The notes beneath the pieces were generated by a model. It searched no databases. It was not told the origin of the DNA and saw only the letters and a program-made list of their open reading frames with translations. A DNA stretch of 64,000 bases from Lactobacillus sp. (GTDB lineage: Bacteria; Bacillota; Bacilli; Lactobacillales; Lactobacillaceae): positions 310,001-374,000 of the forward strand of contig JAKVKU010000001.1 of the NCBI GenBank assembly GCA_022484695.1, written 5' to 3'. Made by a program: the position numbers and the translations under genes. Of this stretch, positions 5,177 through 44,390 are shown piece by piece (the first letter of the stretch is position 1; the number at the start of each line of letters is the position of its first letter).

Positions 5177-8101
5177 TTATTGGGCGCTTGTAGCGGCGTT
5201 GGCTTCCACCCGATCCCCAAAGATATGGAATTCACCCCGGGTATTTACCCCAGGATAAGCGGGATCCGTGTCGGCACCAAATTTATCCACTTGTAGTTTT
5301 AGATAACGGAAAGGTTTGTTCTGTTGGTCAGATTTCACCATGATGGTCTGCGGGCCGTTTTCAGTGGCGGTCATTTGATCACTTAACAAGGTCCAAGTCT
5401 TGCCATCATTAGAGCCATAGACATTTGTCCCAGAAACCCGGTTGGGGAAACCGATGCGGGCTTGAATGACAAACTTGGTCATCTTCAGGCGATAACTTGC
5501 CCCAAAGTCAAAGGTCTCACTAGGTTGGCTGAAGTTACCGTCATAAGTTAACAAATCATTATCCACGAGATTTTGGGCCGCGGCAGCGACTGGTTTGCCA
5601 TCCGGCGTAGTGACCGCGACAAAGTTTGGATCCGTGGCATAATCCAGGCTGCCATCGCTGAGTTTGCCATTGAGCAGCACACCCTTTTGAATGGCGGTGG
5701 TATAAGCACTCAAGGCTTGGTTAAAGGCTGCATCACTGCCGCTATCAAGTAGTGCTTTGACCGCTTTATCCGTCTGGCTAATTTTGGCCTGGTCGGCCGT
5801 AATATACGTGTCTTTAGACTTCAAAGCCGTAACGGCGTTATAGGCCGCGGCGCGACTGTTGGCCACATTTAAGGTCAACGCTTGCGTTGCCGTTAAGCCA
5901 CTACTGGTCTTTAACAGCAATAATGATGCTGTACCGGCCTTATTGGGTGTAATGGTCAAATTATTACCATTAAGCGTTGCGGAACCAGCAATGGTCCCAT
6001 CAAGGCTCAAGGCGTTGTTGGCAGCATTGGCAATTGGGGTAGTATAGGTTTGGTCTTTGACGAGATTCAGGGTTTGGCTAGTCCCATCGGTAAAGCTTGG
6101 GGCAGCTGTCTCATCAGACACATATTGATATTCTTGGAAGTCCACTTGCACATTGGAGCCACCAATCACACTGTAGAAGTCTAAATATGGTGATACGGTG
6201 GTTTCAGGGGCAGCTTGGGTTGGATATAACAAGCTGATCCACTGGCCATGGGTATTAGGGATGGCAATGGTGGCATAAGCTTTGTCTGGTAGATTTTGAC
6301 TGCTGAGTTTCAACGTGGCTTCACCATTAGAGCGAATCTTAATGGCTGACTGTTTATTTTTCACTAAGCCGGTCATGGCAATTTGACTGCCACCAGGATT
6401 GCTGGTTTTATCTTGGGGATAACGTTTGGCATAATCGGTTTCGTGGATGTCACCTTGATGAGCAGCCGCGGTGACCCGCACGTAATCATCTTGGACTTTG
6501 GCTAAATTATCATCCAAAATGGTCCCGGTTTTCACAAAATTGCGATTTGGGGTCGTCGGCAAGGCATTTGACACGTGACCATAGTCGGCGTCGGCCCGTT
6601 GTTTTGGCATGGACAACCAGTACTCCGCGCCAATTTCAGTGATTTTATTGTCGCTATAAGCTCCCCAGTAATTCATGGTCTTGGTCCCTTCGTAAAAGAC
6701 TGGATTGCTTAGATGTTGGGCAATATAAGTCATAGCTGGGGCTTTTTGGGCTAGTTCTGCTTCAGAATAGCCTTCTTGATAGCGATAATAGTCGTATAAT
6801 TCACTGTTACTCATGTACTTGTTGATCCGGCCCCGGGATTGCTGGGCGATGGGACCACCAAAGTCGATCAACTTGGAAGAGCCATTGCCGTCCCAAGCGG
6901 GGAAGTCGCTGCCGCCATTGTCTTGTAATTGGGTCCAGGCAATAGAGTTCCCAAAGTTGTATTGATAGAATGAATCTACCCCAGTAAGGAGGCTACCGCC
7001 CTTAAAGGCGTAAGGATCCACGGCGTTAGCTGCAGAAGATACCTGACCGGTGGTGGGGTCTACTTTGGTATTTTGTTGATTGATGATCCGGGCCAACCCA
7101 ATCAATACCAGGGTATCATCTTTGGCATGATCTTGGTCCCGACCCATTTCTAACAGTTGGGTGTAATCTTGTTTAGTGGGATTACGGGGATCATCTTTAG
7201 AGATGCCATAAAGCAAGTGGGCAAAGGCCCCATTACTGTATGGTTTATCAGTATCTTTGTTGACCATGACCACTTCCACCAGGTCATCGTAGGCCTGTTT
7301 GTCAGATTTGAAGAGGACACCGGCCATTTTCCCAGTGTTTAAATAATTTTGCTGATTCAAATAATAGTCATTTTTGTTCATGATATTTTTCATCAACGGA
7401 TTAATGAAATTATTGACTAATTTTTCATCATCACTTTGGGACCAAGCTAAATCCACCGTGTTGCCAGTGGCCTGATCCACATAGGTGGGTTGGGTCAGTG
7501 AGGTGTATTTCAATAACTCCGCCGCGCTGACCAGGTAATAAAATGGCACCACGGCATGGATTTGCGCATCGGGATAATAGGCCACTTGATTAGGGTCTAT
7601 TTGTTCCCAGAGACGAATCTGCCGCAGGGCATTGGCCCGATATTGGGGATTACCGGTCATATAATACATAACCGCTTGGGTGTAGGCCCGAAAGCCATCT
7701 TCCCCTAAGGCCATTTCTTGACCGGCGTTGTTGAAGGTGTTGTTTTTAACGGTGTCAAAAGTCCCCGCTTGGATGTTTGCAGCGGCAAAGGTCGTGCTGG
7801 CAAAACGGGTTTGACACATGGCCGCATAATAAGCCTGCCAAGGTTGGGCTTGGTTAACCAGCTCGTTACGGGTATTTTCCAAAGCATCTGGACTGGCGGA
7901 AATCGCCGGGTGCAAGATGCCATTGGTAGTGGTTTTTTGTAATTGAACTTTGGTGGAAATAACAGGTACGGGTTGGTTGGTGGTTTTACCCGGATCTGCG
8001 TAATCCGCTTGAACAACTTGTGCTTGTCCCAACAACAAAAACAACAAGCCCAAGCCTAAACTGATTAAGGGCAGTTTAAACTGTTTAAACCTTAAAGACA
8101 T
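5177..8101 (-). CDS. Secreted polysaccharide lyase, alginate-lyase fold with C-terminal F5/8 type C domain (lyase 1)
   Basis: A 974-residue exported protein. The signal peptide, residues 1-32, has a hydrophobic core and a VQA cleavage site. Residues about 60-480 match the alginate-lyase (alpha/alpha) family in character, including GEDGFRAYTQAVMYYMTG and E318-M-G-R-D-Q-D-H325. The middle region (about 520-830) is beta-rich. The last 145 residues form a discoidin-like carbohydrate-binding domain (VYGSNDGKTW, FRYLKLQVD, GEFHIFG). There is no LPXTG anchor, so it is probably released. It is the last gene of PTS operon 1, 21 bp after an esterase, and is a close paralogue of the lyase at 22106-24991. 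It presumably makes unsaturated uronides from an extracellular polymer; the polymer is not known. GGGAGGG precedes the ATG by 7 nt. Confidence 0.75.
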   Translation of the reverse strand: MSLRFKQFKLPLISLGLGLLFLLLGQAQVVQADYADPGKTTNQPVPVISTKVQLQKTTTNGILHPAISASPDALENTRNELVNQAQPWQAYYAAMCQTRFASTTFAAANIQAGTFDTVKNNTFNNAGQEMALGEDGFRAYTQAVMYYMTGNPQYRANALRQIRLWEQIDPNQVAYYPDAQIHAVVPFYYLVSAAELLKYTSLTQPTYVDQATGNTVDLAWSQSDDEKLVNNFINPLMKNIMNKNDYYLNQQNYLNTGKMAGVLFKSDKQAYDDLVEVVMVNKDTDKPYSNGAFAHLLYGISKDDPRNPTKQDYTQLLEMGRDQDHAKDDTLVLIGLARIINQQNTKVDPTTGQVSSAANAVDPYAFKGGSLLTGVDSFYQYNFGNSIAWTQLQDNGGSDFPAWDGNGSSKLIDFGGPIAQQSRGRINKYMSNSELYDYYRYQEGYSEAELAQKAPAMTYIAQHLSNPVFYEGTKTMNYWGAYSDNKITEIGAEYWLSMPKQRADADYGHVSNALPTTPNRNFVKTGTILDDNLAKVQDDYVRVTAAAHQGDIHETDYAKRYPQDKTSNPGGSQIAMTGLVKNKQSAIKIRSNGEATLKLSSQNLPDKAYATIAIPNTHGQWISLLYPTQAAPETTVSPYLDFYSVIGGSNVQVDFQEYQYVSDETAAPSFTDGTSQTLNLVKDQTYTTPIANAANNALSLDGTIAGSATLNGNNLTITPNKAGTASLLLLKTSSGLTATQALTLNVANSRAAAYNAVTALKSKDTYITADQAKISQTDKAVKALLDSGSDAAFNQALSAYTTAIQKGVLLNGKLSDGSLDYATDPNFVAVTTPDGKPVAAAAQNLVDNDLLTYDGNFSQPSETFDFGASYRLKMTKFVIQARIGFPNRVSGTNVYGSNDGKTWTLLSDQMTATENGPQTIMVKSDQQNKPFRYLKLQVDKFGADTDPAYPGVNTRGEFHIFGDRVEANAATSAQ

Positions 8102-8122
8102 TGATATTCCCTCCCATTGGTA

Positions 8123-8845
8123 TTAATTGGTTAACCAGACCTCCAAGAAATTTTGTAATGCCGGGTGCCATAAAGTAAAATCATGAAATCCGGACTGTTG
8201 GTGATAGCTGGCACTGTCAGGCTTAACGGCATTGACTGCATCGCCAAAGGCCTGGGTGTACTTGTTTAACGGATCTTGATCACCGCAATATAAAGCGATG
8301 CGGGGCAATTTTTGCTTTAACTTGAAGCGCTGCTGAAACAAAAAGGCGGTATCGTTTTCACTATTTTCTAATCCCCCCGCAAAAACCTGGTTAAAGACTG
8401 GGTCATTGCGATCGCGTTTATAGAAGATAAACGCCGGGGAGAAAGCCCCGATGGCACTGTAATAGGGGAACTTTAAGCCCAAAAGTGCGGCCCCATAGCC
8501 GCCCATGGAGTAGCCAGCAATGGCGGTATTTAAGTAACTAAAGTTCAAACTAAAGGTTTGTTTCATGACCTGATAGAATTCCACCCCGATAGCTTGACCA
8601 TAATCTTCGCCGTTTTTGTGATCCGTGTAAAAACTATTTTCACCAGCGGGACAAAAGAAGGCCGTGTCGTACTCGTCAGCCCAGGCCAGTAGGGGTGTAT
8701 TTAGCAACCAAGCCTTTTCATCCGCCTGGACACCGTGCAAGAGAAATAAGACATGGGTTTTGGCAGACATAGCTTTGGGTAAAACAGCTACATATTGTTT
8801 GTAACGATCTAGGACCGTGGAAAAATAAGAACCATTGATTATCAA
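8123..8845 (-). CDS. Intracellular alpha/beta-hydrolase esterase (EstA/tributyrin esterase-like)
   Basis: A 240-residue serine esterase without a signal peptide. The oxyanion segment is FLLHGVQ near residue 37. The nucleophile elbow is GYSMGG, with Ser113, and the acid lies in YCGDQDP near 195. The histidine is in SGFHDFTLWHP near 225. The family removes acetyl or feruloyl groups from sugars. Its place between EIID and the lyase suggests it deacylates imported oligosaccharides; this is inference. The start is TTG at 8845, with GGAAG 7 nt upstream. Confidence 0.8.
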   Translation of the reverse strand: MIINGSYFSTVLDRYKQYVAVLPKAMSAKTHVLFLLHGVQADEKAWLLNTPLLAWADEYDTAFFCPAGENSFYTDHKNGEDYGQAIGVEFYQVMKQTFSLNFSYLNTAIAGYSMGGYGAALLGLKFPYYSAIGAFSPAFIFYKRDRNDPVFNQVFAGGLENSENDTAFLFQQRFKLKQKLPRIALYCGDQDPLNKYTQAFGDAVNAVKPDSASYHQQSGFHDFTLWHPALQNFLEVWLTN

Positions 8846-8858
8846 CTGATTACTTCCT

Positions 8859-9689
8859 TTACTTGATGATGCCTAGGCCACCAAGAACAGCGGAGATAAC
8901 GATGACCCCAATTAAGATCCAAGTTGTGGAGATTTTCTTTTTCCGCAACAACCAAATCAATAGCCAAACCACGCCTAAGGGCAGTAAACCTTTTAGAATG
9001 CCATCTAGGGTTGTTTGTAAATTGAAGGGCACGCCACCTAGTTTGGTGACCACGCTAAATTTCAAAGGTACGTTGAGATAGGTCATGGCCCCAATCATGG
9101 TCAGCCCCAGGAGGGAACAGCCCTTGGTGATGGAGCTTAATAACCCACTTTCTTGGGCTTCACTGATATAATTGGCCCCGACTTTATACCCCAGTACCCC
9201 GCCGTAATATCTGACGAAGTAATAAGGCACGTGGAATAAAATCAAGAACAATAGCGGTCCGAGGATATTACCCTGGGTGGCCAGGCCTAAGCCGATCCCA
9301 GTGGTGATGACTCGCCAAGTTCCGGTGAAGAAGGAATCCCCTAAACCGGCTAAAGGACCCATCAGCCCAACTTTTAGACCTTGGACACTTTCTTCAATAT
9401 CCGGCATCGGTTTTTCAGCATTTTGTTTTTCCATGGAATAGACGATGCCCTGGAGAAATGGTAAGAAGACTGGGTTGGTATTGAAATACTGCATGTGTCT
9501 GGCCACAGCAGCGTAGTAATCATCATCGTTCTTATACAATTTCCGCAACAATGGCATCAGAGTCCAACCAAAACCTGGGCCTTGCATCCGCACGTAAGTC
9601 ATTTCACCCATGATGGTAAAACCGCGCCAGAAGATACTATGAATATTCTTTTTATCTGTTTTCGTTAAATTATTGGTCGTTGTACTCAT
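8859..9689 (-). CDS. PTS mannose-family EIID component (operon 1)
   Basis: A 276-residue membrane protein. It has the EIID hallmarks FWRGFTIMGEMTYVRMQGPGF near the start, MEKQNA, and GLKVGLMGPLAGLGDSFF around residues 105-125, followed by C-terminal helices. With EIIC it forms the sugar channel that couples transport to phosphorylation. Its ATG overlaps the stop of EIIC in ATGA. The operon reads EIIB, EIIC, EIID, esterase, lyase. It lacks an EIIA gene. Confidence 0.92.
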   Translation of the reverse strand: MSTTTNNLTKTDKKNIHSIFWRGFTIMGEMTYVRMQGPGFGWTLMPLLRKLYKNDDDYYAAVARHMQYFNTNPVFLPFLQGIVYSMEKQNAEKPMPDIEESVQGLKVGLMGPLAGLGDSFFTGTWRVITTGIGLGLATQGNILGPLLFLILFHVPYYFVRYYGGVLGYKVGANYISEAQESGLLSSITKGCSLLGLTMIGAMTYLNVPLKFSVVTKLGGVPFNLQTTLDGILKGLLPLGVVWLLIWLLRKKKISTTWILIGVIVISAVLGGLGIIK

Positions 9690-10501
9690 GATAAGAAGTC
9701 CTCCATTTCATTTGATCCGGTGCCACCAGCCGTGCCGGCAGCTGGGCCACTTGGCCGGTTTTTATTTTCTTGGCGTTTCTTGTAATCCGTCAAAATGAAG
9801 AAGACAGCTGCGGCGCCACCAAGGACGGCGATTGGCATGGTCCCTAGTTTTAGATAAGCAGCCATAATGAAACCAATAAAGAAGAAGGCCATCAGTTGGT
9901 TATCCCACATGGAGTTCACTAGGATAGCCATCCCAAGGGCAGGCAAGGCAGCTGACATAGCTGTTAGCGCGCCATTAACAAACGGTGGCATGGAAGCCAT
10001 CATATGTCTGACCGGTTCAACCCCGATCATCATGATGACAAAGGCCATGATGGCAAAGACCGTGGGATAAAAGATAATGGCAAAGTAATGGGTCGCCGTG
10101 AATAGCTTATCGTTATGATTAGCCACAGCCCGGTCTTCAAAATCAACGACGAAGTTAAAGAATACCCCAGCAATTAAGTTGAACAGCAAAACGGCTAATA
10201 GGCCGATGGGAATAGATAAGGCCACGGCCGCAGAGGTCCCTTTACCTAACAAAATTCCAAAGGCGGTACCGAATACCCCGGCCGAAGCCACATCAGATGG
10301 CACGGAACCACCCACGGAGAAGGTCCCTAAGAACACGGCTTCAATAGCCGCCCCCATTAAAATACCTTGGCGCAAGTCACCTAACGCCAAGCCAACCAAT
10401 GGGCCGATCCAGATGGGGCGAATTTGAATATTGAAGAAACCCCAATCTAAGAACTTTGTTAAAAACATAATGACTGCAATCAGTAAGGCTTGAATAACCA
10501 T
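9686..10501 (-). CDS. PTS mannose-family EIIC component (operon 1)
   Basis: A 271-residue integral membrane protein of the sorbose/mannose EIIC type. It starts IQALLIAVIMFLTKFLDW, has GILMGAAIEAVFLGTFSVGG near residue 50 and PSDVASAGVFGTAFGI near 75, and ends in a hydrophilic tail. It forms the substrate channel with EIID. It starts 4 bp after EIIB and overlaps EIID by 4 nt, so the three are translationally coupled. GGAGG precedes the ATG. Confidence 0.92.
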   Translation of the reverse strand: MVIQALLIAVIMFLTKFLDWGFFNIQIRPIWIGPLVGLALGDLRQGILMGAAIEAVFLGTFSVGGSVPSDVASAGVFGTAFGILLGKGTSAAVALSIPIGLLAVLLFNLIAGVFFNFVVDFEDRAVANHNDKLFTATHYFAIIFYPTVFAIMAFVIMMIGVEPVRHMMASMPPFVNGALTAMSAALPALGMAILVNSMWDNQLMAFFFIGFIMAAYLKLGTMPIAVLGGAAAVFFILTDYKKRQENKNRPSGPAAGTAGGTGSNEMEDFLS

Positions 10502-10505
10502 CAGT

Positions 10506-11003
10506 TTATGCCTCCTTTTGAATGAGCTTGTCTAACGGAATTTTTTGTTGATCCGGTACAATTTGATAGGCTACCGGTGTGCCACTGTCACTAATGGCTT
10601 GTAAATCAGCAACATCCTGGTCACTTAAACGCAAATTTTCGGTATATTTCTTTTTATTGGCAGCAGCTTCTTTAGAGGCCCGGCCAAAATTACCAATATT
10701 CACCAAGGGAATTTTGACCCCAGTTTCCACCACAAAGCGGGCGTCTTGGGGATTGTTTACCACAATAAATGAATTTAAGGCGTTGAATCTTGGATCGGCA
10801 AAAAGTGTTTTGGCCTTGTCTCGGCTTAGTACAATAGCTTTCATCGTTGGCGGCGTCGCCATTTTTAAAGAAGCACTTTGAATTGGATCATTAGCCGCTT
10901 TGTCGTTGACCACTACAATGTGATCAACTTGTAACTGGTGGCTCCAAATCAAAGCCACTTGCCCGTGAACCAGGCGCTCATCAATACGTAACATTTTAAT
11001 CAA
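10506..11003 (-). CDS. PTS mannose-family EIIB component (operon 1)
   Basis: A protein of about 165 residues with the EIIB motif RIDERLVHGQV; the histidine at about residue 13 is the phosphorylated residue. It takes phosphate from an EIIA and passes it to the incoming sugar. A GTG at 11012 is in frame, but the TTG at 11003 is better placed after GGGGTGA and aligns with the starts of the other two EIIB proteins. It is the first gene of operon 1, downstream of a sigma-54 promoter. Confidence 0.88.
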   Translation of the reverse strand: MIKMLRIDERLVHGQVALIWSHQLQVDHIVVVNDKAANDPIQSASLKMATPPTMKAIVLSRDKAKTLFADPRFNALNSFIVVNNPQDARFVVETGVKIPLVNIGNFGRASKEAAANKKKYTENLRLSDQDVADLQAISDSGTPVAYQIVPDQQKIPLDKLIQKEA

Positions 11004-11100
11004 ATTAGTCACCCCATCTTTTCTCGTTATGCGTCATAAACACCTACAGTTGTTAAATGCTTAAAGCTAATTTGTATCTCCTCCCGGATAGAATCTAGTT

Positions 11101-11114
11101 AAAAAGCGCTTTCA
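11101..11114 (-). promoter_or_regulatory. cre-like CcpA site, PTS operon 1
   Basis: On the minus strand TGAAAGCGCTTTTT lies just downstream of the sigma-54 -12 element, where bound CcpA would block transcription. Confidence 0.7.
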
Positions 11115-11125
11115 TATTCGTATAA

Positions 11126-11141
11126 GCAAATTTGATGCCAA
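11126..11141 (-). promoter_or_regulatory. Sigma-54 promoter of PTS operon 1
   Basis: On the minus strand TTGGCATCAAATTTGC matches the -24/-12 consensus (TGGCAY, N5, TTGC) with correct spacing. It lies about 125 bp upstream of EIIB. Confidence 0.88.
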
Positions 11142-11222
11142 CATTTGGCGGCGGTGCTAAGATATGCGGGATAAGTGCCGTTAAATCAATAGTTGAAGCG
11201 TGAAATATATTTTTTTAAAAAG

Positions 11223-11271
11223 CGACAGAGCATTGTTTCCGACAGATGAGAAACATATTTTTAATGTGTCG
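11223..11271 (-). promoter_or_regulatory. Upstream activator element of PTS operon 1, CGACAGA-N18-TGTGTCG
   Basis: CGACAGA at 11240-11246 and TGTGTCG at 11265-11271 are 18 bp apart, with a further CGACAGA copy at 11223-11229. The element lies about 100 bp upstream of the sigma-54 promoter. The same pair with the same spacing occurs upstream of two other sigma-54 promoters in the window. The rest of this 400-bp intergenic region holds only the cre site, the promoters and the nudix gene leader. Confidence 0.7.
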
Positions 11272-11343
11272 GTTGAACGATGTGGCTTAAATAGAGACCA
11301 TGAATAAGTTAATATTGCTAGTTTGAATTTTTTATAAATAGGC

Positions 11344-11349
11344 TATAAT
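11344..11349 (+). promoter_or_regulatory. -10 element (TATAAT) of the nudix gene
   Basis: A perfect TATAAT about 68 bp upstream of the ATG. The -35 is poor (TTTGAA at 16 bp). Confidence 0.5.
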
Positions 11350-11416
11350 GTATGCTTACAGATGTGATATAGCCTAGTCGTGTCATTTCAAACATCAATT
11401 ACGAGGAGATAAGCCC

Positions 11417-11923
11417 ATGGTATACACTTACTGCCCCACTTGTGGGACAAAATTGATCGACAAAGCCGCAGGCGATGATGGAACAACGCCTTATTGTCCG
11501 GTCTGTCAGCGTTTTTGGTTCCCAACTTTTGCCGATTGTGTCATTGTACTGGTGGCCAATGAATTTAACGAAATTGTCCTGGCCAAAATGCCCTATCTAT
11601 CTGAACAATATGCGTCATTGATTTCTGGTTATATGCAGCCAGGCGAAACGGCAGAGGCCAGTGCTAAACGGGAAGTTCAAGAAGAATTAGGTCTGGTTTT
11701 ACCGGCAGTCCAATATACCGGTACTTATTGGTTTGGCAAAACCGATGCCTTGATGCATGGCTTTATTGGCCAAACCACCAAACAAGCTTTTAAAGTGTCC
11801 GACGAATTGTCGACGGTGCAATGGGTCCCAGCACCAGAAGCACCGAAATATATGTTTCCAGAAAGTCCGGACAATGCGGCCTTGGCGGTATATCGGACAT
11901 TTATGCAACAACGTAAGATTTAA
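11417..11923 (+). CDS. Nudix hydrolase with N-terminal zinc ribbon (NADH pyrophosphatase-like)
   Basis: A 168-residue protein. The zinc ribbon has Cys6-x2-Cys9 and Cys27-x2-Cys30. A complete Nudix box follows at residues 71-93 (G-x5-E-x7-REV-x-EE-x-G-L). This layout resembles the C-terminal part of NudC-type NAD(H) pyrophosphatases, but the protein is shorter than NudC (about 257 residues) and lacks its N-terminal domain, so its substrate is open. It stands alone between two polysaccharide operons and ends at a bidirectional terminator. An AGGAG precedes the ATG. Confidence 0.85.
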   Translation: MVYTYCPTCGTKLIDKAAGDDGTTPYCPVCQRFWFPTFADCVIVLVANEFNEIVLAKMPYLSEQYASLISGYMQPGETAEASAKREVQEELGLVLPAVQYTGTYWFGKTDALMHGFIGQTTKQAFKVSDELSTVQWVPAPEAPKYMFPESPDNAALAVYRTFMQQRKI

Positions 11924-11966
11924 AAAAGTTTCAAGTCTTTTAGAATTGGACCACCTAAAGATACTC

Positions 11967-12030
11967 AAAAAGCCCGTTGGAACTATGGGAGAAACCAAAA
12001 TGTTTCTCAGATGATTCCAGCAGGCTTTTT
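11967..12030. terminator. Bidirectional terminator between nudix and lyase 3 genes
   Basis: AAAAAGCC and GGCTTTTT form the outer stem, with an inner GAGAAAC/GTTTCTC hairpin. It serves two convergent genes. Confidence 0.75.
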
Positions 12031-12071
12031 GTATAGCGCCAGATAAAGTTTTAGTGTTAAGGGGCGATCGA

Positions 12072-13940
12072 TTAATCAGTGGTATACAAAGCGGCTTGCA
12101 ACCAGTTAATATGTTGGCCGCCTTCATTGGTGACAATTGGTGCCCGGGACAAGGTATTGGCGGCTTGTTGCACGCTTTGCACGGCGTCTGTTGTCATTGG
12201 CCGTTGGGTCAAATAGTGATTAGCCACAATTTCATAGGCTGGGGTACCGTCGTTAGCTTTGCCGCGAGAGAGGTCAGAGGCAAAGGTCTCCGATGGCACA
12301 TCTTCGCCTAGATTATACTTTGCCGTATAAGCCACGCCGGCCAGTAGGCGGCTATTGTAGGCTGAGAATAAATCAATACCTTGATTCCAAGAAATAGCTG
12401 CTTGCAGGGCTAGGCCGTTGATGCCTAATTGGACGTGGGCTTGATCCCGGGAAGTTTCCTGAAGTTCGCCTGTGGGATAGATGTAATTTAACAATGAACC
12501 CTCTGAGGTCCCATTGGGATTTTGGGCATTGCCTAAATAGAATTGTTTTAAGGCGGTATTGTACAAATCAACATCATTTAAGTAAACGGCTGCTGACATA
12601 TTAAAGGCCCCAATTAAGGCATCCCAGGCGCCATTGGCTTGGGGGTAGTAATCTACAGCTGGGCTGTAGGCCCCGCCTCTGGCAATCATCATGCTTTTAA
12701 CAAAGGCATCAAAGCGTGCAATGTCAGCTGGTTGCCACTTGTCGGCGTCAGGGGTGGTTGGAGCGGTATTATAAACATTTTTCAAGAGTTCAGCGGCGTT
12801 GAGCATTTCTGGGAAATCCAGGGCAAAACGCAACTTGGCATCATTGCCATGACCAACTGTTGTTAAGGTGTTGGTCCAGGCATTAAGGATGTTGATGGCC
12901 GTTTTGGCGTGGGCATTATCCCGATCAAAATACCACATCAAGGCATTGGAACTGGCGGCAAAACTATCTTTGGTGAGATGGTCGCCACCAATATTGGGAT
13001 TATTATACGGGCCAATATCAATCAAGGCTTGGGGATCAGGTTGATAGTCAGCAGCGGCTAATGGGGAAGCCTTCAATTGGGCATAGGCTTTACCGTCAAT
13101 GGTGCTGGTGTTGTCTTTGTTGGCACGGATGCGGTCTAGAGTTTTGGCGGTATAAGAGATACCAGGGTGGGCAAATTTAAAATCTTTGGCCACATAGGGG
13201 ATTTCAGAGTTAGTGGCGTATTGGTCACTCACATCGGTGACGTCAAAGAAATCCAAGTTAGGCCCATCAAAAACTGCTTGGCCAGGGGGTGCCTGTAAGG
13301 CCAAGGTAATGGTGTTAGTCCCAGCATTTAGATGGACGGTCATATAATTGTTAGTCCATTTCGTATTGCCCCGCACCGCCGCGTAATTATCAGCACTTTG
13401 CACTGTGGTTTGTGGGGTATTGGCATCTTTATAGCCCGAGATGTTAAAAATCATCCAACCGGCCCAGCCCGAATCACTTAAGGGGTCAGTACTATTATTA
13501 ATCATTACCCGGAAATTACGTTCATCCCGATCGTTACGGTTGCCCTTGGTTTTGGTGGCTGGATTGTTGTAGTTAAAACGCAGTTGATAAAAGCCGGCCT
13601 TCGGGACTTGTATCTGCCAAGTGGCGGTATCGTGGCCTGCTGGAATCGTATTTAAGTACGATGTGGTATCAGCTACTGGGTCACTAAAATCCACAAATTG
13701 ATGACCAGAGGCATTGTTCAAGGTGATACTGTTGCCCTTGGCGTCAATGGGGATTTTATCACCATCATGACGGATATAAACATTGCCAGTGTGTTGGGTC
13801 AAGGTCTCAGCTTCAATACGTTGAGAAAATGCAGCGGAAACCGGCTGGGCATTGCTTGAAACGGCTAAGCCAAGACCACCCATGGCCAGGGCCAAACATG
13901 TTTTGGCAAACAAGTGCTGTGGGCTTTTCAGTTTTTTCAT
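12072..13940 (-). CDS. Secreted polysaccharide lyase, N-terminal carbohydrate-binding module plus alginate-lyase domain (lyase 3)
   Basis: A 622-residue exported protein with a signal peptide at residues 1-36 (LALAMGGLGLAV core, VSA-A site). Residues about 40-237 form a beta-sandwich module like CBM6/CBM35 (IEAETLTQ, GFYQLRFNY, LNAGTNTITL). Residues about 255-560 are the alginate-lyase-like domain, with DFPEMLNAAELL and the catalytic-looking E495-T-S-R-D-Q-A-H502. It is more distant from lyases 1 and 2 and has a different binding module, so it may attack another part of the polymer. It is monocistronic and directly under its own sigma-54 promoter, upstream element and cre site. Confidence 0.75.
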   Translation of the reverse strand: MKKLKSPQHLFAKTCLALAMGGLGLAVSSNAQPVSAAFSQRIEAETLTQHTGNVYIRHDGDKIPIDAKGNSITLNNASGHQFVDFSDPVADTTSYLNTIPAGHDTATWQIQVPKAGFYQLRFNYNNPATKTKGNRNDRDERNFRVMINNSTDPLSDSGWAGWMIFNISGYKDANTPQTTVQSADNYAAVRGNTKWTNNYMTVHLNAGTNTITLALQAPPGQAVFDGPNLDFFDVTDVSDQYATNSEIPYVAKDFKFAHPGISYTAKTLDRIRANKDNTSTIDGKAYAQLKASPLAAADYQPDPQALIDIGPYNNPNIGGDHLTKDSFAASSNALMWYFDRDNAHAKTAINILNAWTNTLTTVGHGNDAKLRFALDFPEMLNAAELLKNVYNTAPTTPDADKWQPADIARFDAFVKSMMIARGGAYSPAVDYYPQANGAWDALIGAFNMSAAVYLNDVDLYNTALKQFYLGNAQNPNGTSEGSLLNYIYPTGELQETSRDQAHVQLGINGLALQAAISWNQGIDLFSAYNSRLLAGVAYTAKYNLGEDVPSETFASDLSRGKANDGTPAYEIVANHYLTQRPMTTDAVQSVQQAANTLSRAPIVTNEGGQHINWLQAALYTTD

Positions 13941-13971
13941 AACATACTTTTCCTCCCAGATATAATTTGTT

Positions 13972-13985
13972 AAAAAGCGCTTTCA
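13972..13985 (-). promoter_or_regulatory. cre-like CcpA site, lyase 3 gene
   Basis: On the minus strand TGAAAGCGCTTTTT, identical to the site of PTS operon 1, between the sigma-54 promoter and the ribosome binding site. Confidence 0.7.
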
Positions 13986-13997
13986 TATGTTATGCAA

Positions 13998-14013
13998 GCA
14001 ACAAGGATGCCAA
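13998..14013 (-). promoter_or_regulatory. Sigma-54 promoter of the lyase 3 gene
   Basis: On the minus strand TTGGCATCCTTGTTGC, a full -24/-12 match with correct spacing, 58 bp upstream of the start codon. Confidence 0.88.
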
Positions 14014-14098
14014 TAATTGGCGACTATTTGGGGAAGCAGAACGAATACCGTCACACCAAGAATTGTGATGGGATATAAAATTTTTTGAAGCCAATTGA

Positions 14099-14140
14099 CG
14101 ACAGATACCGACAGACACAAAGTAGGCTTAAGATGTGTCG
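14099..14140 (-). promoter_or_regulatory. Upstream activator element of lyase 3, CGACAGA-N18-TGTGTCG
   Basis: CGACAGA at 14109-14115 and TGTGTCG at 14134-14140, again 18 bp apart, with an extra CGACAGA at 14099-14105. It lies 96 bp upstream of the sigma-54 promoter, in the same orientation as in PTS operon 1. The remainder of this 315-bp intergenic stretch is the rpoN terminator. Confidence 0.7.
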
Positions 14141-14197
14141 ACAGTCCAGAATGACTAGGCTAGGCAACCAACCAAATAGATCCAGCCAGCGCACTAA

Positions 14198-14247
14198 AAA
14201 AAGAATCATCGTCAATCGCCACAAGGGCGTTATTCAGATGATTCTTT
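14198..14247 (-). terminator. Terminator downstream of rpoN
   Basis: On the minus strand AAAGAATCATC pairs with GATGATTCTTT and a T-run follows. Confidence 0.8.
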
Positions 14248-14255
14248 GGCTTAAT

Positions 14256-15554
14256 TTATTTGGACACCCGCCGTTTACTGGACGCCGGAATTTCTAATTG
14301 CTTGCGATATTTCGCCACGGTCCGCCGGGCGATGTCAAAACCTTGGTCAGACAATTGCTGGGCTAAGGTGTCGTCGCTCAGGGGATGGGCTTTGTCTTCC
14401 TTGGCCACTAGGGCTTTGATCTGGGCCAAGAGCTGGTCCACTGAAACCGCGTTATCCCCGTCAGTACTTTGACTACGCCGGGAGAAGAAAGCCTTCAAAG
14501 GAAAAGTCCCGAAGTCGGTCACCATATATTTGCTGTTGATGGTGCGGCTCACCGTGGATTCACTGATTTGCAGGGTCTGGGCGATGTCTCTCAGCAACAA
14601 AGGGGCCAGTGTGGTAGATTTCTGGGACAAAAAATCATATTGCTGGGTCATGATTTGTTTGCCGATCAATAACAAAGTTTCCCGGCGTCGTTGTAAATTA
14701 TAAGTCAGGGCTTGATACTGCCGGTATTTATCCTGGACATATTGCTGGACTTCCGCATCCGTGGACTGGCGTAGATGGTCATAGGATTCAGCTTCAAAGA
14801 TGATTTCCGGTTGATTGCGGTGAAAGAAAGCCAAACGCAACTTACCTTGATCTTGGGTGACCTTAAGTTCTGGCAAAATGTATTGGGTAGGGGTCTGTTG
14901 GTCCATCAACTGGCCCGGATAAGGGTAGAGGGTATGGATGTAATCTAAGCAAGCCTGCAGGTCAGGTTCAGTTAAATCCAGCTCAGATTTCAGTTGGGCC
15001 CAATTTTGAGCCACCAACGTGTCGAAGTGCTCCTGTAAGATTGGTAACACGCCGGCTGGTACGGGATTAGTATCGTATTCCGCCTGTAAAATCAGACATT
15101 CCTGCAAATTGCTGGCGCCAATGCCCGGGGGGTCTAGTTGCTGTAGCAAAGTTTTAGCATCCAGCAACATGGTTTTGGAGATTTTTAACTCGGCCATAAT
15201 GGTGGCATCATCCACCAATAAATAACCGGAAGGGTCCAATTGTTTGATCAAATAGACTAACAAATCCCGCAAAGGCGTCTTGCGATAGGCTAGATGAACC
15301 TGCTCCAAGAGGTAGTCAAATAAAGATTGGTGGGTGTCGGCTATGGGATAACCGGATAAAGCTGCCGCGGCCACGTCCCGTTCTAAGTGGGGCTTCACTT
15401 CAATCAAAGGATTTTCTAAGCTGGCGTTCTTCAGGTAATTGGTTAGGTCAATGACATCTAGTTGCAGCATTAAAATCGACTGTTGCATATCTTGGCTCAA
15501 AGCCAGTTTTTGCACTTGTTTTTGGTTCAATTGGAAATTTTGGGCGAGGGACAA
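14256..15554 (-). CDS. rpoN: RNA polymerase sigma-54 factor RpoN
   Basis: A 432-residue sigma factor. The glutamine-rich region I is at residues 1-50 (QNFQLNQKQVQKLALSQDMQQ and the SILMLQLD segment). A core-binding middle domain follows, then the helix-turn-helix (ISESTVSRTI near 330). The RpoN box ARRTVAKYR lies near the C-terminus. It recognises the -24/-12 promoters described here. The start codon is TTG, with AAGGAGG 6 nt upstream. It begins 15 bp after the stop of the LevR-type activator gene, so activator and sigma factor are very probably one operon. Confidence 0.95.
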   Translation of the reverse strand: MSLAQNFQLNQKQVQKLALSQDMQQSILMLQLDVIDLTNYLKNASLENPLIEVKPHLERDVAAAALSGYPIADTHQSLFDYLLEQVHLAYRKTPLRDLLVYLIKQLDPSGYLLVDDATIMAELKISKTMLLDAKTLLQQLDPPGIGASNLQECLILQAEYDTNPVPAGVLPILQEHFDTLVAQNWAQLKSELDLTEPDLQACLDYIHTLYPYPGQLMDQQTPTQYILPELKVTQDQGKLRLAFFHRNQPEIIFEAESYDHLRQSTDAEVQQYVQDKYRQYQALTYNLQRRRETLLLIGKQIMTQQYDFLSQKSTTLAPLLLRDIAQTLQISESTVSRTINSKYMVTDFGTFPLKAFFSRRSQSTDGDNAVSVDQLLAQIKALVAKEDKAHPLSDDTLAQQLSDQGFDIARRTVAKYRKQLEIPASSKRRVSK

Positions 15555-15569
15555 GATTTGACCTCCTTT

Positions 15570-18308
15570 CTAGGACTGAAAAATAATATCGTACAAATAA
15601 TTCAATTCCCCAGCGCCTACTTGGACCCCATAAGCTGATTCGATATCAGCCAAGGCCCGTTTGATTTGATTCAAACCTTGGGTGCGATCGATGCTGTCAT
15701 CTGGGGTATAAGTCAGGGGTGGGTCGTTACGGATCAGACGTTCAATCAAAGCACTAATGTGCACATATAAAGTGGCCCGCTGACTGTTGGCCAGTTTAAC
15801 TTGGGCACTTTCTTCTAAATGTTCAATCATTTCCCCCACGGAGTGAATCACTTTTTTCACATCCAAGATAGTCACCGCCGACAATAACCGCTCAATGGAG
15901 AAGTTTTGGATCAAATGGTCATTGATGTAGGTGATCATGTCCGGATCTTGAATCGTTGGGAAAATTTGCTGAATGATTTTAGTCCCATCATTGGACACTA
16001 AATTCTCCAAAGAGATGAACGGAAAACCAGCTAGTTTGGGATCATTCGTCCCCACGATGGCTTTGACATCATATTGATTGAAAATGGGGCTGTCGGTACC
16101 GTACTTCTTTAAATACGCGAAATCTACGGATTCGAATTGATAACCCAGTTTTTTGGGGATGCTTTTTGTCAACAAAGTTTGAATTTGTTTGGCCGCCCCA
16201 ATACCCGTATGACAGGTGGTGATGATCATGGGTCTTTTTTCTAAAATTGGATAGGTCAATTGGTATTTGGGTAGTAGTTTGGGTTGCACCTTACGGCCAA
16301 TTTCATCAATGGCCATATCTTGTTGGATCATTTCCCCCACATAAAGGGCCGCTTGGGTGGAGACATTATTGACAATCAAAATCGGCCCAGGGATCAAGTC
16401 CTTTAAAATGTCCGGCAAGACCATCAATGAACCCATATCCACCAAGATAATCAAGCCTTTGCTACAATCGTATTTCTTCAGATAGCGTAACATAAATTCC
16501 TTCACTTGGCTGGTGGAAACTGATAAAGGCATGTCAAAGGCATCAAAGATTTTACCATTTAAAAATTGGTTGGCCACATCGGCGATACTGCTGGCTGTGG
16601 AAAAGCCGTGGGCTAAAATGATGGCCTGCTTGCCACTGCGCTGATAGTCCACACCTAGACTGAGTAAATAGCTAAGCAATAGCAGTTTATCTAAGTCGTC
16701 CATCTTGAAGTCCAACTTGGTTTTAATTAAGTCCAGAAATGATTTTAATAATTGATACTCAAGCACGGTGTTTTCTTTTAACAATTCCAACAGATGGCTG
16801 ATTTTATTTTGATTACTGATGGTGAGGCTGAGGTTGAAATCTTGCTTGCGATACATAAAGTTGGCGATGGCCACGATGGCATTGCCTTTGATGTTCACGA
16901 AAAACGAGGTATCTAAGTAATCGAATAATTGTTGGATGACGCTGATCATGTATTTGAGGGCTTCGTTTTCAAAACGGCCGTCTTGGTGGACCAGTTGATC
17001 CATCAAAGCCCCAACCTCCCGGGCAATGTGTTGTTTTAAAGTAAGAATGGTAATTGTTTTATTTTGGTAACTGGTTTCCAATTGAATCAAACGGGCCACC
17101 AGTTCATTGATCAGCCGATTGTCATCGTGGAGTTGCAGCTCATAGTCGGCTAAGGTACTGGTGGGAGTGAAGGTCACGGTGTCTTGGGTGATGGCTTCTT
17201 GTTCGTTAACGGCCAATAGCTCCGGCAAAAAGCCATTGCCAATGGTTTCAGAAGTGATGTGAATCGTAGCCTTTTGGCGAGCTTTACTGAAGACCCGGGC
17301 ACAAAGGATGCGGACAGTGGTCTTTAATTCCCCCACGTTATTTTTGTAATTGAAATTATAGAGGCGATTGATCACCCAAGGACTGACTTCTAACGTCTTA
17401 TTTAAACGCTGACTTTCCACAATGAAGGCTTTATAGATGTGCTGTTTTAATTCGGACTTGGAGCGGTTGTTTAAATCCGGCACGGTGATGGCAATGGGAA
17501 TCCGACGCATGAAGGTTTGCAAGAAAGTTTCTTCCAAATTTTCCGTGGTGGCAAAAATCAAACGGACGTTGGAGTGGCGCAAGACATTGCCTTCGCCCAT
17601 GCGCTGAAAGGTGCCGGTATCCATAAAGGAAAACAGCTTTTCTTGGCTTTCCGGGTCCAAACGATGGCATTCATCTAAGAATAAAATCCCGCCGTCGGCT
17701 GATTCCAACATCCCCTTGAAGTCCGTCGTCGCCCCGGTAAAACTGCCCTTGGCATAGCCAAATAAATTGCTGGAAAGCAGTTCCGGGTTGTGATAATACT
17801 GGGCGCAGTTCAACACGATAAAGGGGGCTTTGGCATCTAATATCCCGGACTCGATACAATATTGATAGGTCAACTTGGCTAAATAACTCTTACCCACGCC
17901 GGTATTGCCCGACAAAACAAAAGGCAGGCCATTAGGTGGATAACTGACAGCGGTGATGATGCGGTCAATACCCTCTTTCATGCTTTGCTGGCTACCAATG
18001 AAAGTTTCAAAGGCGTTGGTTTTACTATGTTGTTCATGAATTAATTCCGGTAAGGACGCATAGACGTTTTGTTTGGGCGTGAAAAAGTGCTCACAAAAAG
18101 TGGCCCGGTCGGCAAAGTTTGTGGGGCGGGATTTAATCTGAATGACTTTTTCTTGCTTTAACAACTCATTGAGGTATTGACTCACGGTATTGCGGCTAAG
18201 CTTGACCCGCTGGGCTAAAAAGTCAGTGGTCAGCCGTTGCAGGTCAGCGAGTTCATTAATTTTCTGGGTTTCAGCGATTAAAGTCTTTTCAACACTATGA
18301 ATGCCCAT
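15570..18308 (-). CDS. LevR-type sigma-54 enhancer-binding activator with PTS regulation domains (activator 1)
   Basis: A 912-residue regulator. An N-terminal helix-turn-helix (LAQRVKLSRNTVSQYL, residues 31-46) leads to an AAA+ domain with Walker A SGNTGVGKS at 133-141, the sigma-54 contact loop GSFTGA at 188-193 and Walker B near 205-215. PRD and EIIA-mannose-type domains follow, with AIILAHGFST as the EIIA histidine segment. It should open sigma-54 promoters when its PRD/EIIA sites signal sugar availability. Its neighbour rpoN and the divergent PTS operon 2 fit this role. Its HTH probably binds CGACAGA-N18-TGTGTCG. Confidence 0.9.
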   Translation of the reverse strand: MGIHSVEKTLIAETQKINELADLQRLTTDFLAQRVKLSRNTVSQYLNELLKQEKVIQIKSRPTNFADRATFCEHFFTPKQNVYASLPELIHEQHSKTNAFETFIGSQQSMKEGIDRIITAVSYPPNGLPFVLSGNTGVGKSYLAKLTYQYCIESGILDAKAPFIVLNCAQYYHNPELLSSNLFGYAKGSFTGATTDFKGMLESADGGILFLDECHRLDPESQEKLFSFMDTGTFQRMGEGNVLRHSNVRLIFATTENLEETFLQTFMRRIPIAITVPDLNNRSKSELKQHIYKAFIVESQRLNKTLEVSPWVINRLYNFNYKNNVGELKTTVRILCARVFSKARQKATIHITSETIGNGFLPELLAVNEQEAITQDTVTFTPTSTLADYELQLHDDNRLINELVARLIQLETSYQNKTITILTLKQHIAREVGALMDQLVHQDGRFENEALKYMISVIQQLFDYLDTSFFVNIKGNAIVAIANFMYRKQDFNLSLTISNQNKISHLLELLKENTVLEYQLLKSFLDLIKTKLDFKMDDLDKLLLLSYLLSLGVDYQRSGKQAIILAHGFSTASSIADVANQFLNGKIFDAFDMPLSVSTSQVKEFMLRYLKKYDCSKGLIILVDMGSLMVLPDILKDLIPGPILIVNNVSTQAALYVGEMIQQDMAIDEIGRKVQPKLLPKYQLTYPILEKRPMIITTCHTGIGAAKQIQTLLTKSIPKKLGYQFESVDFAYLKKYGTDSPIFNQYDVKAIVGTNDPKLAGFPFISLENLVSNDGTKIIQQIFPTIQDPDMITYINDHLIQNFSIERLLSAVTILDVKKVIHSVGEMIEHLEESAQVKLANSQRATLYVHISALIERLIRNDPPLTYTPDDSIDRTQGLNQIKRALADIESAYGVQVGAGELNYLYDIIFQS

Positions 18309-18322
18309 TTGTCAGTCTCCTT

Positions 18323-18354
18323 CGACACATTTAAAATTTAGCGGATTTCTGTCG
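18323..18354 (+). promoter_or_regulatory. Upstream activator element of PTS operon 2 (CGACAGA-N18-TGTGTCG, read on minus strand)
   Basis: CGACACA at 18323-18329 and TCTGTCG at 18348-18354 are the reverse complement of the shared element with the same 18-bp gap. It lies 73 bp before the sigma-54 promoter and also just upstream of the activator gene, so autoregulation is possible. Confidence 0.7.
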
Positions 18355-18383
18355 TAACTAACTATAACATTCACATATTTTTT

Positions 18384-18397
18384 TGCAAGCGCTTATA
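18384..18397. promoter_or_regulatory. cre-like CcpA site in the activator 1 / PTS operon 2 intergenic region
   Basis: TGCAAGCGCTTATA contains the AAGCGCTT cre core. It lies between the upstream element and the sigma-54 promoter, so it could act on either divergent unit. Confidence 0.55.
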
Positions 18398-18426
18398 TGG
18401 CAAGGCTTTCAGCCCCTCGCCAAAAG

Positions 18427-18442
18427 TTGGCACGGTTCTTGC
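18427..18442 (+). promoter_or_regulatory. Sigma-54 promoter of PTS operon 2
   Basis: TTGGCACGGTTCTTGC is an exact match to the -24/-12 consensus, 72 bp upstream of the EIIA start. Confidence 0.92.
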
Positions 18443-18513
18443 TTATAGATTAGTGTCCAATACTAAACCAGATATTATTCTAATTTACGATTTTAAGAAA
18501 AGAGGAAACACTG

Positions 18514-22083: not shown

Positions 22084-22105
22084 GAGAACTTGGGAGGTAG
22101 TGACA

Positions 22106-24991
22106 ATGAGACGACCAACGTTGAAATGGCTCCGTATTATGGGGATCAGCCTTAGTTTGATCGTGAGTTTAGCTTGGCTAAGTGGCCAAACCAAGGCGGT
22201 GCAAGCCGCACCGAAAATTGACCAAAGCGTGACGTTAAATGTTGCCCGAGAAAATGGTTTGTTGCATCCTGCTATTAGTGTGGATCCAACTCAACTGCAA
22301 GATACCAGACAGCAATTGGCCACGGGTGCGCAACCTTGGACGGCTTATTATGAAGCCATGGCCGCCAGTGACTATGCCAGTACTACGTTTACAGCCGCTA
22401 ATTTAAAGGCTGGGACAACAGATACGCCTAAGGATACAACTTTTACCAGTAACAAGCAGGAACCGAATTTGAGTCAAGACGGCTTTCGGGCCTATACCCA
22501 GGCGGTGATGTATTACTTGACCGGGCAGCCAGTTTATCGGGCGAATGCTTTGCGGCTACTGCGGATTTGGGAGAACATGGATCCTAATGGGTACAAGTAT
22601 TATGCTGACGCCCATATCCATGCGCCAATTCCCTTTTATTACATGGTTAGTGCCGCTGAACTGGTGAAGTACACCACTTTGAACGAGGCGGCTAAACAGT
22701 ATTCAACACTAGATCTGAATTGGACAGCAACAGATAATCAAAAATTAACCACGAATTTGATTAATCCAGTTATGAAACAATTTCTAAACGCCAACGATCA
22801 TTATTTCAATCAACATTTGTATGATGTGACTGGTAATATGGCTGGGGCAATTTTTAAAAATGACTCCGCAGCCTATGATAAATATGTGGAAGAAACTTTT
22901 GTGAATCGTAATACGGATAAGCCTTATATCAACGGCGCTTTGAGCCATTTGTATTATGATGTGGCTGCCGATGACCCTAGAAATCCAACACAACAAGCTT
23001 ACAGCCAACATTTGGAAATGGGACGGGACCAAAACCATGCCAAAGATGATGTGTTGTGTTTGACCGGGTTGGCTAGAATTGTCAATCAGCAAGGAACCAA
23101 ACTAGATCCCAGTGCTGGGACGGTTTCCACCGCAGCCGACGCCAAAACGCCCTATAGCTTTTTAGATGACCGGCTACTTAAAGGCAGTAATCAATTTTAT
23201 GCCTATAACTTTGGCAGTTCCGTGCCTTGGACCCAGTTTGCCCAACAAGGCAATGCGCAATATCCGGCTTGGGATGGCAATGGGACAGATAAAATCATCG
23301 ATTTCGGTGGAGCAATCAGTCAAGATGGCCGGGGTCGGATGAATAAATTCTTATCTACCAGTGAATTGTATAATTTTTATCGCTATCAAGAGGGGTATTC
23401 CAAGGCCCAATTGACCAAATTAGCCCCTGGCATCGTGGCCCAAGCCATGCATTTAACGGGACCTTACTTTGAGAATGGCCAAGCCCTCATGAATTTCTGG
23501 GGCAGTTACAGTGATAATAAGGTCACGGAAATCGGCAATGAGTATTGGTTATCCATCCCCGCAGCTGCCAAAAATGACCCAGATGCGGCCAAAGTACCTA
23601 GCCAAAAGCCTACAAATTCCAATGTGGCCTTTACCCAAGGGCAGATCCTAGACGCCAAAAAGGTAGTGGCAACACCTGACTACCTCACAGTAACGGCCGC
23701 ACCTAGTCAAGGAGATATTTTAGAGACCCAATACAATCAACAATATCCTAAAGATAACAAGACGATACGCGTTGGCAGTCAAATTGCGTTAGCCAGTCTG
23801 GCCAAAGATTTGACCAAGACCACTTATCAAGCTATTCAGGTCCGTAGTAATGGGCCGGCAACAATTTTAGTCAGCAGTTCAAACACACCCAACACGGCCT
23901 ATAAACAACTAGCTGTGCCAGATACCAAGGGGCAGTGGCTGAACTTGGTGTACAGCACGGCTAAAGCCAAGGGAACTACTGAGTCGGCGTACATTGATTT
24001 TTACAGTGTCTTGGGTAATGCGAAAACCAAGGTGGACTTTAAAGACTTCGCTTATGTGAACCAGCCTGGCGGTATTCAGACCACCGTACCAACTTTTGCG
24101 GATCCAAATGATGATGACATTTATCTGGTGAAAGATAATGCTTATGAAACCAAGATTGAGGGAACGAATCTTTATACTTTAGCTTTAGATAATGCGCCTA
24201 GTGGGATGGCTTTAAAGCAGCAGCAAAACACAGTGACCTGGACACCGACTAGTTCGGGAGGACAGCAAGTATTATTATCGGCCAGTAACGGTCAGGTCAT
24301 GGTGACCAAACAATTGAAGTTTCATGTTTATGATTCTAGGGCAGACGTGATTATGGCTGTCAGCAAACTGGCACCAACGCAGACATTAACCAAGGCCGCA
24401 CAAACAGCCTTGGATTCTGCCAAAACAACCGTGGACAAGTTAGCTAAAACTGGAACAATTCAAGCCTTTTACCAAGGAATTCAAGCTTATCAACAGGCTA
24501 TTCAACAGGCCGAAGAACTGGCGCCAAAATTAAGTGATGGTAGCTTGGATTATGCCGCTTATCCGGATATGGCCACAGCTACCGTCACCGGTTTCAAGAA
24601 TTCTATTGATTTGGGCACCTTGGTGGATAATAATCCGAACACATTTGACGGCAATTTTACCAAGCCAGAAGTGATTGATTTTGGTGCCAACTATCAAGTC
24701 AATGCCACCGCATTTGAATTCTTGGCCCGGACTGGGTTTCCGAATCGCTTGCAAGGCGCCAATGTGTACGGCTCTAATGACGGTCAAAGTTGGACGTTAT
24801 TGACGGAAAAAATGACCAGCCAAACCAACGACTGGGAAAAGATTGCCGTTAAAGCTGATCAATTGGATAAAAATTATCGTTATTTGAAGATTCAAGTGGA
24901 CCAACCAGGACCAGATACGGATCCAGCTTATCCAGGAATCATTACCCGGGGCGAATTTCATATTTTTGGCACCAGGATTGAAAATAACTAA
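22106..24991 (+). CDS. Secreted polysaccharide lyase, alginate-lyase fold with C-terminal F5/8 type C domain (lyase 2)
   Basis: A 961-residue exported protein, paralogous to lyase 1 along its whole length. The signal peptide spans residues 1-34 (ISLSLIVSLAWL core, VQA-A site). The alginate-lyase-like domain covers about 50-470 with E304-M-G-R-D-Q-N-H311. A beta-rich middle follows, and a discoidin domain closes the last 140 residues (VYGSNDGQSW, YRYLKIQVD, GEFHIFG). The ATG at 22106 is 8 nt after GGGAGG; the GTG at 22100 is too close. It is the only exported member of operon 2 and presumably feeds unsaturated oligosaccharides to the PTS and to the GH88 enzyme encoded just after it. Confidence 0.77.
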   Translation: MRRPTLKWLRIMGISLSLIVSLAWLSGQTKAVQAAPKIDQSVTLNVARENGLLHPAISVDPTQLQDTRQQLATGAQPWTAYYEAMAASDYASTTFTAANLKAGTTDTPKDTTFTSNKQEPNLSQDGFRAYTQAVMYYLTGQPVYRANALRLLRIWENMDPNGYKYYADAHIHAPIPFYYMVSAAELVKYTTLNEAAKQYSTLDLNWTATDNQKLTTNLINPVMKQFLNANDHYFNQHLYDVTGNMAGAIFKNDSAAYDKYVEETFVNRNTDKPYINGALSHLYYDVAADDPRNPTQQAYSQHLEMGRDQNHAKDDVLCLTGLARIVNQQGTKLDPSAGTVSTAADAKTPYSFLDDRLLKGSNQFYAYNFGSSVPWTQFAQQGNAQYPAWDGNGTDKIIDFGGAISQDGRGRMNKFLSTSELYNFYRYQEGYSKAQLTKLAPGIVAQAMHLTGPYFENGQALMNFWGSYSDNKVTEIGNEYWLSIPAAAKNDPDAAKVPSQKPTNSNVAFTQGQILDAKKVVATPDYLTVTAAPSQGDILETQYNQQYPKDNKTIRVGSQIALASLAKDLTKTTYQAIQVRSNGPATILVSSSNTPNTAYKQLAVPDTKGQWLNLVYSTAKAKGTTESAYIDFYSVLGNAKTKVDFKDFAYVNQPGGIQTTVPTFADPNDDDIYLVKDNAYETKIEGTNLYTLALDNAPSGMALKQQQNTVTWTPTSSGGQQVLLSASNGQVMVTKQLKFHVYDSRADVIMAVSKLAPTQTLTKAAQTALDSAKTTVDKLAKTGTIQAFYQGIQAYQQAIQQAEELAPKLSDGSLDYAAYPDMATATVTGFKNSIDLGTLVDNNPNTFDGNFTKPEVIDFGANYQVNATAFEFLARTGFPNRLQGANVYGSNDGQSWTLLTEKMTSQTNDWEKIAVKADQLDKNYRYLKIQVDQPGPDTDPAYPGIITRGEFHIFGTRIENN

Positions 24992-32820: not shown

Positions 32821-32874
32821 AAAACTTGGCTTGAAAAAGCTCTCTTAGCTGACCAGCCCGCCTCAATAGTGATA

Positions 32875-32883
32875 TGCTATACT
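32875..32883 (+). promoter_or_regulatory. Extended -10 promoter of the GntR gene
   Basis: TGCTATACT, an extended -10 motif without a good -35, lies 28 bp before the GTG start. Confidence 0.55.
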
Positions 32884-44387: not shown

Positions 44388-44390
44388 AAA

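Follow-up and report, generated by a model that had tools for sequence, protein, structure and literature searches.

The upstream activating sequences (UASs) of LevR- and CelR-type activators, which carry phosphotransferase system (PTS) regulation domains (PRDs), lie tens to ~125 bp upstream of −24/−12 PTS promoters (at −125 for LevR of Bacillus subtilis; CelR UAS sites are described in Clostridium acetobutylicum and Bacillus thuringiensis) and adjoin the gene of a PRD-type activator with an N-terminal DNA-binding domain. Control by the PTS through such domains is established for LevR and CelR (PMC10864463), and PMC6615313, citing Nie 2016, refers to published UAS motifs for PRD-type activators of Clostridiales. 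Here we describe an inverted repeat, CGACAGA-N18-TGTGTCG (the dyad), in a window of 64,000 nt from a 3.34-Mb Agrilactobacillus genome (GenBank assembly GCA_022484695.1, contig JAKVKU010000001.1, positions 310,001 to 374,000), where it precedes the sigma-54 promoters of two mannose-family PTS operons (A and B) and of a free-standing alginate-lyase-family gene, in the neighbourhood of the gene for a LevR-type activator (activator 1). We assign the element to a known kind, the UASs of PRD-type sigma-54 activators: it precedes −24/−12 promoters that drive mannose-family PTS operons in the vicinity of the activator gene, is conserved with that activator across species and is absent at the promoters of other activators. 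It is set apart from LevR- and CelR-type sites by a CG[AC]CAnA half-site, by its overlap with the activator's predicted promoter and by an additional promoter-proximal half-site; as far as checked, neither this half-site nor the regulon nor the proximal half-site has been described before, the motif sequences of Nie 2016 lying outside the comparison. We consider it very likely that the dyad serves both as the enhancer of activator 1 and as its autoregulatory operator, coupling operon A, the lyase gene and operon B in one regulon. A clade of LevR-type activators in Lactobacillales would thereby gain a concrete predicted binding motif, whereas the UAS of LpoR, a related activator in Enterococcus faecalis, is called as yet unidentified (PMC8262876). 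For lactic acid bacteria of food and the environment, a regulon for polysaccharide use that can be tested would be defined.

The dyads, their promoters and the activator gene have the following window positions:

11240..11271, minus strand: dyad and predicted UAS of operon A, CGACACA-N18-TCTGTCG on the promoter strand (sequence and sister-genome ortholog)
14109..14140, minus strand: dyad and predicted UAS of the free-standing alginate-lyase-family gene (sequence and sister-genome ortholog)
18323..18354, plus strand: dyad between activator 1 and operon B, a predicted UAS for the latter and, lying over the activator transcript start, a putative autoregulatory operator
11125..11140, minus strand: sigma-54 promoter of operon A, TGGCATCAAATTTGCT
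13997..14012, minus strand: sigma-54 promoter of the free-standing lyase gene, TGGCATCCTTGTTGCT
18428..18443, plus strand: sigma-54 promoter of operon B, TGGCACGGTTCTTGCT
15570..18308, minus strand: activator 1, LevR-type PRD sigma-54 activator (N-terminal winged helix, AAA+, EIIA-man-like and PRD domains)

These three sites, the third of them inverted, are the sole exact copies of the element found by pattern search in the whole genome, and all three fall within the neighbourhood of activator 1. The degenerate 12-base dyad CGACAnA-N18-TnTGTCG has zero further exact matches, where base counting gives an expectation of ~0.2, and by the same counting the number of copies with one mismatch in the rest of the genome does not exceed that due to chance. 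When read in the direction of the promoter, all three dyads have the form CGACACA-N18-TCTGTCG, ending 99 bp (operon A), 96 bp (free-standing lyase) and 73 bp (operon B) before the −24 box. A preliminary description of this DNA had reported the same coordinates, 18-bp gap, orientation to the promoter and distance of 73-99 bp, all of which we recovered, and the motif search of the genome that it called for returned just three exact matches, each at a sigma-54 promoter, with no scatter. The extra CGACAGA copies that it mentioned are indeed present at two of the sites but are not conserved in the sister genome, A. composti DSM 18527:

11223..11229, plus strand: extra half-site CGACAGA, without conservation in the sister genome
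14099..14105, plus strand: extra half-site CGACAGA, without conservation in the sister genome

The boxes of the three promoters near activator 1 follow TGGCAY-N5-TTGCT. Across the genome, TGGCAY-N5-TTGCW has 22 exact matches, seven of which look real when their position and the sequence downstream are considered; five of them lie in the window, one on contig C4 and one on contig C9. Three of these seven carry the dyad, namely those adjoining activator 1; the other real-looking sigma-54 promoters of the genome have neither dyad nor proximal half-site. The promoters on C4 and C9 lie close to the two other clear sigma-54 activators outside the window, the genome having four clear ones in total.

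Comparison with the sister genome, whose activator 1 is 99% identical, in keeping with a window from an Agrilactobacillus close to A. composti, refines the half-site. The operon-A site of A. composti DSM 18527 reads CGCCACA-N18-TCTGGCG, both halves having changed symmetrically, and its lyase site reads CGACACA-N18-TCTGGCG. The CGCCA forms in these sites therefore give CG[AC]CAnA as the half-site, so that the dyad of CGACANA and TNTGTCG proposed at the outset is present in the window but had to be widened to tolerate CGCCA.

We searched for the exact element and for the activator-1 protein in the same 398 Lactobacillaceae genomes, counting as close orthologs those with at least 64% identity. 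The element occurs in 8 of the 398 genomes, comprising seven of the eight with a close activator-1 ortholog vs one of the 390 others (Fisher p = 2e-13; 5e-10 without Agrilactobacillus). That single stray match was rejected as a genuine site, being a repeat plus spacer within a CRISPR array, and the eighth ortholog, from Lacticaseibacillus porcinae, has CGACGGA-N18-TGTGTCG at the same place. At every ortholog locus activator 1 and a PTS operon with a sigma-54 promoter diverge from a shared intergenic region, and the element lies there. Activator-1 proteins of Enterococcus, Vagococcus and Tetragenococcus are 44-46% identical, and in these genera CGACA-N22-TGTCG (N21 in Vagococcus) is found upstream of the activator gene, and across 16 sites compared the halves are near-invariant while the 18 interior bases vary. 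The preliminary description had staked its prediction on conservation upstream of orthologous operons, and such conservation is seen in both Lactobacillaceae and Enterococcaceae.

Activator 1 has the domains of a LevR-type regulator. Its AAA+ sigma-54 interaction domain matches PF00158 (1.8e-38), with the GSFTGA motif readable in the sequence, and C-terminal to this are a PRD (PF00874, 4.4e-09, above cut-off) and an EIIA-man-like domain (PF03610, 5e-4, slightly below cut-off). Residues 1-95, which have weak MarR-like matches, are modelled as a winged helix with a predicted local distance difference test (pLDDT) score of 94.8, the recognition helix comprising residues 39-51. Within this helix R39, N40, T41, S43, Q44, Y45, L46, N47 and E48 are invariant across 12 activator-1 orthologs and are shared by the activators that own the element, and helix and element co-vary. 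The best curated family for activator 1, near full length, is DagR (NCBIfam NF047795) at 474 bits; as this is far below the curated cut-off of 1400 bits, activator 1 is not the same regulator as DagR.

More distant activators provide a further comparison. At five of five Clostridium and Listeria LevR-type loci examined (L015, L017, L018, L020 and L021) we found NNACA-N22-TGTNN at a distance of 53-65 bp upstream of the −24 box, with no more than one mismatch and with CAACA, TAACA or AAACA half-sites separated by the same 22-bp spacer. The activators at these loci have RSTVSSYLNK or a similar recognition helix. Because a different helix is here combined with a different half-site and the same spacer, the predicted sites of distant LevR-type activators share a dyad geometry, and what differs from one helix to another is the half-site. 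The initial statement that such a form was undescribed is weakened accordingly, both by this shared geometry and by the UAS motifs for PRD-type activators to which PMC6615313 refers, and we found no readable LevR or CelR motif in the accessible literature. A class-level search for further LevR loci added almost nothing. The Clostridium loci among the five have an additional direct half-site further out.

A further, single half-site, missing from the preliminary description, lies next to each of the three promoters:

11144..11150, minus strand: proximal half-site CGCCAAA, with 5 bp between its core and the −24 box (operon A)
14016..14022, minus strand: proximal half-site CGCCAAT, with 5 bp between its core and the −24 box (free-standing lyase)
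18418..18424, plus strand: proximal half-site CGCCAAA, with 5 bp between its core and the −24 box (operon B)

In activator-1-type clusters of other genomes, 32 of 42 distinct sigma-54 promoters have CG[AC]CA exactly 5 or 6 bp before TGGCA, and several of the ten exceptions carry it at that offset with one mismatch. The corresponding figures for controls are 0/40 promoters of other LevR-type clusters and 0/19 other matches in the Agrilactobacillus genome itself (0/59 total). A perfect proximal CGACA is usual at promoters without a distal dyad, and CGCCA or CGACT is found at most promoters with one. A composite search of 395 Lactobacillales genomes returned the combination in five of the five with an activator-1 ortholog of about 43% identity or more, in four Enterococcaceae genomes that each have a more distant LevR-type activator alongside, and in five scattered others. 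The fixed 5-6 bp spacing to the −24 box could also be explained by an extended sigma-54 promoter contact or by the site of a separate factor, a reading that we regard as unlikely, since the 59 control sites without the sequence include promoters of this genome that use the same sigma-54, and since the proximal sequence equals the dyad half-site down to the alternation of CGACA and CGCCA. A Listeria locus (L021, near 4211-4243) offers a parallel to the activator-1 clade, with TAACA 6 bp before the −24 box and the same TAACA as its own dyad half. The proximal half-site thus appears to belong to the same recognition system as the dyad. It may reflect a mode of sigma-54 activation that works from next to the promoter at a fixed spacing and confers promoter specificity as well, a proposal that we put forward tentatively, at slightly below even chances, and that differs from the distance-tolerant looping of classical enhancer-binding proteins. 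No description of a fixed promoter-proximal half-site was found in the accessible literature, which was limited; such a site would question the textbook view that sigma-54 activators work from distant, spacing-tolerant enhancers only.

The dyad next to activator 1 may also bear on expression of the activator itself, a point that the preliminary description likewise lacks and for which one further feature was predicted:

18361..18388, minus strand: predicted sigma-70 promoter of activator 1 (TTGCAA / extended −10 TATAGT), the −10 starting 12 bp before the dyad (consensus match only)

The extended −10 starts 11-12 bp before the dyad in 8/8 Lactobacillaceae orthologs, placing the dyad at the start of the predicted activator transcript. 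In Tetragenococcus the predicted sigma-70 promoter lies inside the dyad, and in Enterococcaceae the dyad overlaps or precedes the predicted promoter. Because the dyad overlaps the predicted core promoter in different registers, this arrangement suggests that activator 1 represses its own gene, which would place the activator under feedback control.

From these observations we infer that activator 1 is the binder of the element. The winged helix would recognise CG[AC]CAnA half-sites, and two inverted half-sites with 22 bp between their CGACA cores would form a UAS 73-110 bp before the −24 box, on which an AAA+ oligomer would contact the sigma-54 polymerase. The phosphorylation state of the PTS would most likely control activator 1 via its PRD and EIIA-like domains. 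Bound at both dyad and proximal half-site, active oligomers would then open three sigma-54 promoters, those of operon A, of operon B and of the lyase gene, and occupancy of 18323-18354 would probably limit activator-1 synthesis. Co-regulation of two PTS operons and a free-standing lyase by activator 1, as originally predicted, is strongly supported by co-occurrence, footprinting by sequence comparison, the matched change, the invariant helix and absence of the element from the other sigma-54 promoters; the description of both operons as lyase-bearing is unverified (see below).

Several observations weigh against this scheme. Most Enterococcaceae promoters of activator-1-type clusters have the proximal half-site alone, with no distal dyad nearby, which rules out the distal dyad as the only enhancer in that family, and secondary Lacticaseibacillus promoters likewise lack a distal dyad. 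Other LevR clades in Lactobacillales have no N22 dyad within 300 bp, and the sigma-70 promoters were placed by consensus matching only. The dyad could instead be the operator of another regulator, such as the GntR/UTRA repressor whose gene (32869-33633) follows operon B or a repressor of the activator gene, shared by the promoters through common ancestry of a regulatory region. Its position over the activator transcript start is the usual place for repressor operators. We judge this reading improbable: two of the three window dyads belong to promoters that are remote from the activator gene, only in activator-1-type clusters does the half-site recur at a constant spacing to the −24 box, and the recognition helix co-varies with the element. 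The GntR protein in particular has no match in ortholog loci that retain the element and was rejected as its binder. Still less credit can be given to action as RNA, with CGACA pairing to TGTCG as a hairpin in the activator 5′ leader; the element does lie within the predicted leader in all Lactobacillaceae orthologs, but its RNA folding does not surpass that of shuffled controls (z −1.3 to +0.5), on which grounds we rejected this reading, and two window copies sit upstream of sigma-54 promoters outside any leader, while the Enterococcaceae dyad overlaps or precedes the predicted promoter. Chance, or functionless shared ancestry of three copied promoter regions, might be suspected from the confinement of all three sites to 7 kb of one genome but has a negligible probability given conservation across Lactobacillaceae and Enterococcaceae despite a variable interior and flanks.

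The genes served by the three promoters, together with rpoN, are arranged as follows:

5177..11012, minus strand: operon A, mannose-family PTS IIB, IIC and IID, an esterase and a 974-aa secreted protein with an F5/8 type C domain
12072..13940, minus strand: free-standing alginate-lyase-family protein (PF05426)
14256..15554, minus strand: rpoN (sigma-54), single copy in the genome
18514..32820, plus strand: operon B region, mannose-family PTS IIA, IIB, IIC and IID, glycoside hydrolase family 43 (GH43), a 963-aa F5/8-C protein, GH88-like, melibiase-like, HAD, GH43 and GH28-like proteins

The 974-aa and 963-aa secreted proteins (5177-8101 and 22100-24991) are paralogues with 51% identity. Domain searches matched F5/8 type C alone in them and no lyase family, PDB sequence searches gave nothing useful, and the structure model of the 974-aa protein has a pLDDT of 40. 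The label of lyase is therefore appropriate for the free-standing protein, which matches PF05426, but is unverified for the two operon proteins, which have no recognised lyase domain. To judge from the title of Yebra 2004 (cited in PMC3162934), Lactobacillus casei has a similar gene set in its esu operon, associated with EsuR and RpoN; operon A resembles it in having PTS genes followed by an esterase, whereas the cluster here also contains polysaccharide-degrading enzymes.

Sequences resembling catabolite-responsive elements (cre; AAAGCGCTTTCATAT and similar) occur near the three sigma-54 promoters at 11100-11118, 13970-13990 and 18384-18402, and suggest possible added control by CcpA. The dyad itself was considered as a cre site and rejected, as by eye it does not fit the WTGNNARCGNWWWCAW pseudopalindrome consensus quoted in PMC8262876. 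The window also contains a second LevR-type activator region (38460-44973). Both the dyad and the proximal half-site are absent from its two sigma-54 promoters (38910 and 44958), and a search of these promoters for a motif of their own gave no clear one.

The MptR-like regulators of Enterococcus mannose PTS (PMC8262876) share with activator 1 the LevR-type activator, the mannose-family PTS and the sigma-54 promoter, but the loci that we term MptR-like by analogy have promoters without CGACA sites, situated inside a hairpin beside the activator stop codon. In a large LevR clade with the helix KRNT[VI]SHYLNQLN and relatives (L117-L134 and L044-L054, e.g. L124 at 4248, promoter strand), a strong hairpin such as AAAAGCAAGTTGCGTGCCA-loop-TGGCACGCAACTTGCTTTT has the sigma-54 promoter as its 3′ arm and lies ~25 bp past the activator stop codon in the loci measured. 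In this clade the terminator of the activator and the sigma-54 promoter of the next operon thus appear to be one and the same sequence.

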